From contig CALKLO010000050.1 of NCBI GenBank assembly GCA_937991945.1, positions 1 to 64,000 on the forward strand: a DNA stretch of 64,000 nt, in the 5' to 3' direction. The notes under the pieces are model-generated. The model was not told the DNA's origin, ran no database searches, and worked only from the letters and a program-made list of their open reading frames with translations. Every line of letters begins with the position of its first letter. The stretch's first letter is position 1. A program made the position numbers and the translations under genes. The DNA comes from an uncultured Granulosicoccus sp. Lineage in GTDB: Bacteria > Pseudomonadota > Gammaproteobacteria > Granulosicoccales > Granulosicoccaceae. Shown piece by piece: positions 49,237-50,250 of this stretch.

Positions 49237-49394
49237 AAGGATGACTTATAAAGGTGTAATTACACTGTATACGAAGTGAAAATCAAAACAGGCACGGCAC
49301 GTGCGATACCTATATTTTTTAGTTTTACATACAAAACTCAAAGCATTAGCTATAGTTTTTGTAAATTTTTTTTTAATAGAATTGTAAGTTGCAG

Positions 49395-49423
49395 TTGAAA
49401 TGTTTATGCACTATGTGGACAAT
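49395..49423 (+). promoter_or_regulatory. candidate sigma-70 promoter for H1-like gene
   Basis: TTGAAA (49395-49400), 17 nt, GACAAT (49418-49423). Confidence 0.4.
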
Positions 49424-49596
49424 GCGCAAAGTGATGTTAACTTGTAACCACATTGCAACAAGTTTTTACGACTGACTTACGTTTATTTTGAGTCGGTTTT
49501 TGTCCGACATCGGTACTGTGAAGTGTACGTTTTATTCAAACAGAAACTGAAATAGTTCGATGTCGATTACGCTGTAACAGTCTGTTCGACTGTTTG

Positions 49597-49624
49597 GGAG
49601 TCTGGTGTCATGGCTCCTTTTTTT
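49597..49624 (+). terminator. terminator-like hairpin in leader of the H1-like gene
   Basis: GGAGTC tggtgtcat GGCTCC followed by TTTTTTT, 30 nt upstream of ATG 49655. Confidence 0.6.
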
Positions 49625-49654
49625 GTTTATCAACACAAAGTCTGGAGTTTAACC

Positions 49655-50134
49655 ATGGCTCGTATCAGTAAGCCGGCAGCAGCAAAACCTGCTAAAGCCG
49701 CAAAGAAGAAGGCTCGCGGTAAGAAGCGCGTAACGAAGAAAAAGGCAGCTGGAAAGAAGAAAGCGGCCAGTAAGAAAAAAGCAGCTGGCAAAAAGGCAGT
49801 TGTTAAGAAACGCGCTACTAAGAAGAAGGCAGCGGGTAAGAAGAAAGCTGCTTCTAAGAAGAAAGCGAGTGGCAAAAAGAAGGCAGCTGGCAAAAAGAAA
49901 GCTGCTGGTAAGAAAAAAGCTAGCGGCAAGAAGAAGGCTGCCAGCAAGAAGAAAGCGAGTGGCAAGAAGAAAGCCGCTGGTAAAAAGAAGGCTGCAGGCA
50001 AGAAAAAGGCAGCGGGTAAGAAGAAAGCTGCTGGTAAGAAAAAGGCAGCTGGTAAGAAGAAAGTTGCTGGCAAGAAGAAAGCTTCTGGTAAGAAGCGCGC
50101 TAGTAAGAAGAAAGCTCGCGCTAAAAAGGCTTAA
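49655..50134 (+). CDS. histone H1-like / AlgP-like Lys-Ala-rich DNA-binding protein
   Basis: MARISKPAAAKPAKAAKKKARGKKRV then (KKKAAG/S)n hexapeptide repeats; GGAG 7 nt upstream of ATG. Confidence 0.85.
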   Translation: MARISKPAAAKPAKAAKKKARGKKRVTKKKAAGKKKAASKKKAAGKKAVVKKRATKKKAAGKKKAASKKKASGKKKAAGKKKAAGKKKASGKKKAASKKKASGKKKAAGKKKAAGKKKAAGKKKAAGKKKAAGKKKVAGKKKASGKKRASKKKARAKKA

Positions 50135-50222: not shown

Positions 50223-50250
50223 AAAAGGGTGGCTTTAGCCACCCTTTTTT
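50223..50250 (+). terminator. rho-independent terminator after H1-like gene
   Basis: AAAGGGTGGC ttta GCCACCCTTTTTT. Confidence 0.92.

Follow-up and report, generated by a model that had tools for sequence, protein, structure and literature searches.

How do bacteria set the dose of their lysine-rich histone-like proteins? The literature that we found says little on this point, and one locus asks it in a concrete form: what does the RNA leader of a histone H1-like gene do for the gene behind it? The locus lies in a stretch of 64,000 nucleotides (the window) from a Granulosicoccus-like genome, whose relatives, retrieved by DNA and pattern searches, are named Granulosicoccus and Granulosicoccaceae. 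The gene and the hairpin at its 3' end are placed as follows:

49655-50134, + strand: lysine- and alanine-rich histone H1-like protein of 159 aa, identified from its translation
50227-50250, + strand: terminator-like hairpin 3' of the H1-like gene, GGGTGGCTTTAGCCACCC followed by T6, terminator score +38.0, used here as a control for the leader hairpin P2

The name H1-like rests on composition (lysine/alanine repeats), because no family model matches: searches of Pfam, NCBIfam and PDB gave no match with a meaningful E-value. Complete orthologues are very variable in length, from about 110 to 200 aa, and differ in their type of repeat (KKKAAG, KKRAT, KKKRST); the N-terminal residues MARISKP…PAKA are conserved across the window protein and its orthologues. 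In the 12 loci listed gene by gene the order is lptG, RDD protein, H1-like gene, moeA, where the locus extends far enough; loci beyond these 12 were recognised by sequence likeness only.

Where would transcription of the leader begin? A first-pass annotation of the window had pointed to a promoter-like TTGAAA-17-GACAAT at 49395-49423. The letters are present, and although a single match of this kind is not above chance in the window (4 found against 4.9 expected), the site is, judged from relatives, a conserved element:

49394-49426, + strand: putative promoter block GTTGAA-N7-TG-ACTATGTGGACAATGCG, conserved in relatives, with -35 TTGAAA at 49395-49400, a spacer of 17, -10 GACAAT at 49418-49423 and a GC-rich stretch next

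Of 48 family genomes, 25 have the block, each a single time, spread over three genera, and the reversed pattern used as a control gave no match. In all same-genus carriers except one, it lies about 230 nt (range 200-278 nt) before the ATG of the H1-like gene; the exception is G014, with a distance of 350 nt. Most simply, the conserved block would be the promoter of the H1-like gene, an activity that we infer. Three genomes, G007, G019 and G026 (L011, L076 and L009), showed no such block before the H1-like gene; G007 and G019 share a different leader, with a hairpin of its own (CTGGCCA…TGGCCAG) just before P2. Clades B and C and the sister genera carry a further stretch, TTGGCCTrTwwyTTGGATgt, between promoter and H1-like gene (L012 in G020, L015 in G009, L019 in G025, L051 in G028, L052 in G032, L053 in G027 and L054 in G035). 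It is absent from the window's clade; candidates for its role are a second promoter, a site for a protein and a GGAT site of CsrA type.

The leader had been described as structured, and this description holds. Its whole length (49424-49660) folds with a z of -2.8 against shuffles, and its last two hairpins, P1 and P2, jointly reach -17.8 kcal/mol against a shuffled mean of -9.6 (z -3.8), with 0 of 200 shuffles as good. The parts of the leader, from the promoter side to the gene, are:

49470-49498, + strand: hairpin P0 (ACTGACTTA…TGAGTCGGT), fold -9.9 kcal/mol, z -2.8
49505-49565, + strand: helix Pb (CCGACATCG…CGATGTCG), fold -21.1 kcal/mol, z -1.8
49576-49594, + strand: hairpin P1, AACAGTC (49576-49582), loop tgttc, GACTGTT (49588-49594), -7.1 kcal/mol
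49597-49617, + strand: hairpin P2, with segment 1 GGAGTC (49597-49602), a loop and segment 2 GGCTCC (49612-49617), -8.1 kcal/mol alone
49618-49624, + strand: T-tract of seven T directly 3' of P2, terminator-like with P2, score +20.4

The letters of P1, of P2 and of its T-run agree with the first-pass annotation, as does the ATG at 49655, 30 nt past the T-run. Upstream of P1, 100 nt of leader show 27% identity between species, which is the random level. At the P0 site of the nearest relative, G015, pairing is possible with changed letters, and in most of clade A a TYCGA…TCGA pairing resembling Pb can be traced, both judged by eye. The covariance of the two hairpins in orthologous loci, which the annotation had proposed as a check, is seen in P1, where two-sided compensatory changes separate clades A and B (for example A-T to G-C and T-A to C-G). 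These were counted, as core changes only, on arms from a hairpin search, since MAFFT misaligned the P1 arms; the search took a wrong hairpin in G013, and its loop anchoring mixes registers. Clade C has other hairpins in place of P1, without GACT. P2 is kept as a hairpin in 22 genomes, but its arms hardly vary.

Does the leader belong to a known class? An Rfam scan of the window matched only a tRNA elsewhere in it, and the best Rfam score of the leader itself was ALIL, at 11 bits against the 50 needed. With no score of the leader at a gathering threshold, its membership of an Rfam family was rejected. No short leader ORF was seen by eye to persist through the divergent leaders, and attenuation by a leader peptide or upstream ORF, of the yxjB or trp type, was rejected because no ORF is conserved.

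Which structures, then, could exclude one another? It had been proposed that GACT in the 3' arm of P1 competes for AGTC in the 5' arm of P2. The letters are indeed complementary, but the pairing is worth only -2.2 kcal/mol against -7.1 for P1 and -8.1 for P2, and the hairpins of clade C lack GACT; this competition was rejected as energetically negligible. Mutually exclusive structures do exist in the predicted folds, but the partner of P2 is the ribosome-binding site downstream, not the 3' arm of P1.

P2 was considered as a terminator. Its score of +20.4 (d'Aubenton-Carafa-type) stands far from the best of the 47 other gene starts of the window, which alone form the background and reach at most -12.5, so that its earlier description as terminator-like is borne out; a generic terminator scan did not list it because its 6-bp stem carries a 9-nt loop. 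The T-tract is kept in all 22 genomes, with 5 to 9 T within the first 10 nt, and in many of them the score of P2 falls in the range of the gene's own 3' terminators. An upstream promoter, a G+C stem and a U-tract thus lie before the gene in the manner of an attenuator, with poor scores of about -14 to -26 in the large-genome clade, and transcripts ending at the U-tract of P2 are a possible, predicted product.

What does not follow from termination is the constancy of the stem. GGAGTC forms the 5' arm in 21 of the 22 genomes and GGCTCC the 3' arm in 18; mean identity is 98% in the 5' arm and 93% in the 3' arm, beside 46% in the loop and 67% in the T-rich tail, and these arms are as constant as the Shine-Dalgarno (SD) region (91%) and the start codons (96%). 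The stem of the H1-like gene's 3' terminator varies freely between the same genomes. Since the arms of P2 are near-fixed where the 3' terminator stems are free, the letters of P2 are held beyond what forming a hairpin requires.

What else might hold these letters? Both arms are complementary to the translation start of the gene:

49644-49649, + strand: SD region GGAGTT (segment 3), complementary to segment 2 of P2
49655-49662, + strand: start region ATGGCTCG (segment 4), complementary to segment 1 of P2

In the best predicted fold of the span from P2 to codon 9, on which the folds were compared, the four GGAG bases of the SD are all paired with the 3' arm of P2 in 20 of 22 genomes, and in full-leader ensembles the SD is paired with this arm in most. 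The SD-closed fold is predicted to be more stable than the P2 state by 0 to 9 kcal/mol; P2 is the favoured state in G020 and G022, and the two states are close to balance in G016 and G021. Pairing of segment 1 with segment 4 (ATGGCTC) has an energy of -6.0 kcal/mol and a chance probability of about 6-12%, and it is part of the closed fold of most genomes. A stable SD/anti-SD fold that excludes another fold is therefore predicted at this start.

How far could such complementarity arise by chance? When the stems are permuted with their pairs kept, about 1-3% of them do as well against the SD in most genomes, and 18-36% in clade C; since the genomes have these arms by common descent, the 1-3% figure counts as little more than a single test rather than 22. 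With a shuffled upstream sequence the SD is usually open, an effect that reaches significance in only part of the genomes, and in several the SD stays equally buried. Matching between loop and spacer gave p 0.03 at the level of clades and 0.20 at the level of genomes, with P2 arms that hardly vary; such covariation looked good by eye in G026, G007, G019 and G016, and failed at genome level.

The reading that we favour, at a probability of about 0.48, is that the gene has a cis-acting leader in which a terminator-like hairpin lends its 3' arm as an anti-SD, forming a switch at the ribosome-binding site. On this model the last hairpin of the leader probably controls the amount of H1-like protein. 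The 5' leader, of about 225 nt, would have two exclusive states at its 3' end. In the first, segments 1 and 2 would pair as P2 at once on transcription, and P2 with its U-tract could terminate part of the transcripts; in transcripts that are read through, P2 would keep segment 2 off the SD. In the second, formed in the read-through mRNA, segment 2 would pair with the SD and segment 1 with the start region, closing the ribosome-binding site. The pairing of SD and P2 excludes P2 but sits downstream of it, and would thus form after the terminator has been passed. For refolding of P2 into the closed state the computed barrier does not exceed 10-17 kcal/mol, which suggests that P2, forming first, could persist for a while. 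As P2 would be a terminator-like site and would also switch the ribosome-binding site between hidden and free, protein output would depend on the lifetime of P2 and on the speed of ribosome loading. The model supposes that termination and refolding occur in cells, and that a signal shifts the balance; this signal might be how fast the RNA is transcribed or translated, or a protein, for which the basic H1-like protein is a candidate.

Alternatively, P2 might be a plain intrinsic terminator in the leader, acting by attenuation with an antiterminator or by partial constitutive termination, and its complementarity to the SD would then be incidental. The kept T-tract, the scores shared with the 3' terminators and the outlying position among the gene starts of the window all agree with this. 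However, the stems of a plain terminator should drift with compensation, as those of P1 and of the 3' terminators do, and the arms of P2 do not; the scores in the large-genome clade are poor; and no conserved antiterminator for P2 was found, GACT/AGTC being too feeble for the part. We rank this explanation second and consider it unlikely.

A third explanation is that P2 is a sequence-specific site for a factor acting in trans, be it an RNA-binding protein, the H1-like protein or a small RNA, and that the letters of its arms are the recognition site. It would account for arms held beyond their pairing, and would fit the GGAT-containing stretch conserved in clades B and C and the sister genera, CsrA-like at best, as well as the repression of chlamydial hctA mRNA translation in trans by the sRNA IhtA (PMC3469542). 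Against this, a GGAG/CTCC stem beside an SD is explicable without any factor, and we regard such a site as doubtful. Somewhat more doubtful still is a separate reading, in which P2 imitates the translation start of its own gene much as a copy would (GGAGTC…CATGGCTCC beside GGAGTT…CCATGGCTCG) and works as a folding timer. A new mRNA would then be open to translation for as long as P2 lasts; once P2 is displaced, the mimic would close over the true start, and histone output would follow fresh transcription.

The first-pass annotation had also offered a small RNA that ends at P2; the H1-like gene would in that case be expressed by read-through only or separately. A conserved promoter about 190 nt before a terminator-like site is what such an RNA would show, but its supposed body stands at the random identity of 27%, and in G007, G019 and G026, which showed no promoter block, the H1-like gene still has its P2. 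With its sequence not conserved, the leader was rejected as a small RNA, and we hold this explanation to be very improbable. Least probable of all is that P2 holds a second translation start, a decoy or upstream ORF competing with the true one: clade A has an ATG inside P2 after GGGAG, in frame in the window with a 174-aa product, but clades B, C and D (G016) do not have this ATG, and frame and stop vary even inside clade A.

How widely is the element spread? A covariance model built from five sequences of the element matched P2 ahead of the H1-like gene in 22 genomes, all of one genus; its only further matches, in G020 (E 0.09) and G060 (E 0.05), do not rise above noise. Model R1 found nothing convincing outside the genus: its four weak matches in 274 class genomes are about what chance would give, and three of the four, on inspection, drew their score from the SD plus an ATGGC start. 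Two sister species (G003 and G017) have a different hairpin at the same distance, GGGAGA…TCTCCC, which lacks a T-tract and is not opened by the SD, and the sister genera lack P2. From these searches, the P2 element is confined to one genus, with some turnover. As a separate observation, a start at the ATG inside P2 (49610-50134 in the window) would give a longer H1-like protein of 174 aa; this holds for the present genome alone, and relatives have lost either the ATG or the frame.

The leader is an RNA element of familiar type that is not in Rfam, to which it would add. Compact and shared by 22 genomes within a genus, it lends itself as a simple case in which coupled control can be tested. Among the papers searched, none described the leader of a bacterial H1-like gene. 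In Chlamydia, the histone-like gene hctA is repressed by the sRNA IhtA (PMC3469542). Post-transcriptional control of a histone-like gene is predicted here as well; the control is exerted by an sRNA in trans in Chlamydia, whereas it would act in cis in the present case. The aapA3 mRNA of Helicobacter pylori, a toxin mRNA with an antisense RNA, forms metastable hairpins that sequester the SD (PMC6733600). Successive exclusive folds at the SD during transcription are the predicted likeness. By contrast, the short-lived hairpins of aapA3 hide the SD, while the first-formed hairpin here would occupy the anti-SD; toxin mRNA and antisense RNA are features of aapA3.

The closest worked-out parallel that we found, by analogy, is the leader of Bacillus subtilis yxjB (RlmAII), which has 177 nt and combines a terminator with an SD-sequestering hairpin; induction of yxjB follows when ribosomes stall on a leader peptide (PMC6851288). 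The leader described here has about 225 nt. In both leaders a terminator or terminator-like hairpin precedes the gene, and in both the read-through RNA is predicted to bury the SD and first codons. The two differ in that no conserved leader ORF was seen here, and in that here one arm of the terminator-like hairpin would itself serve as the anti-SD.
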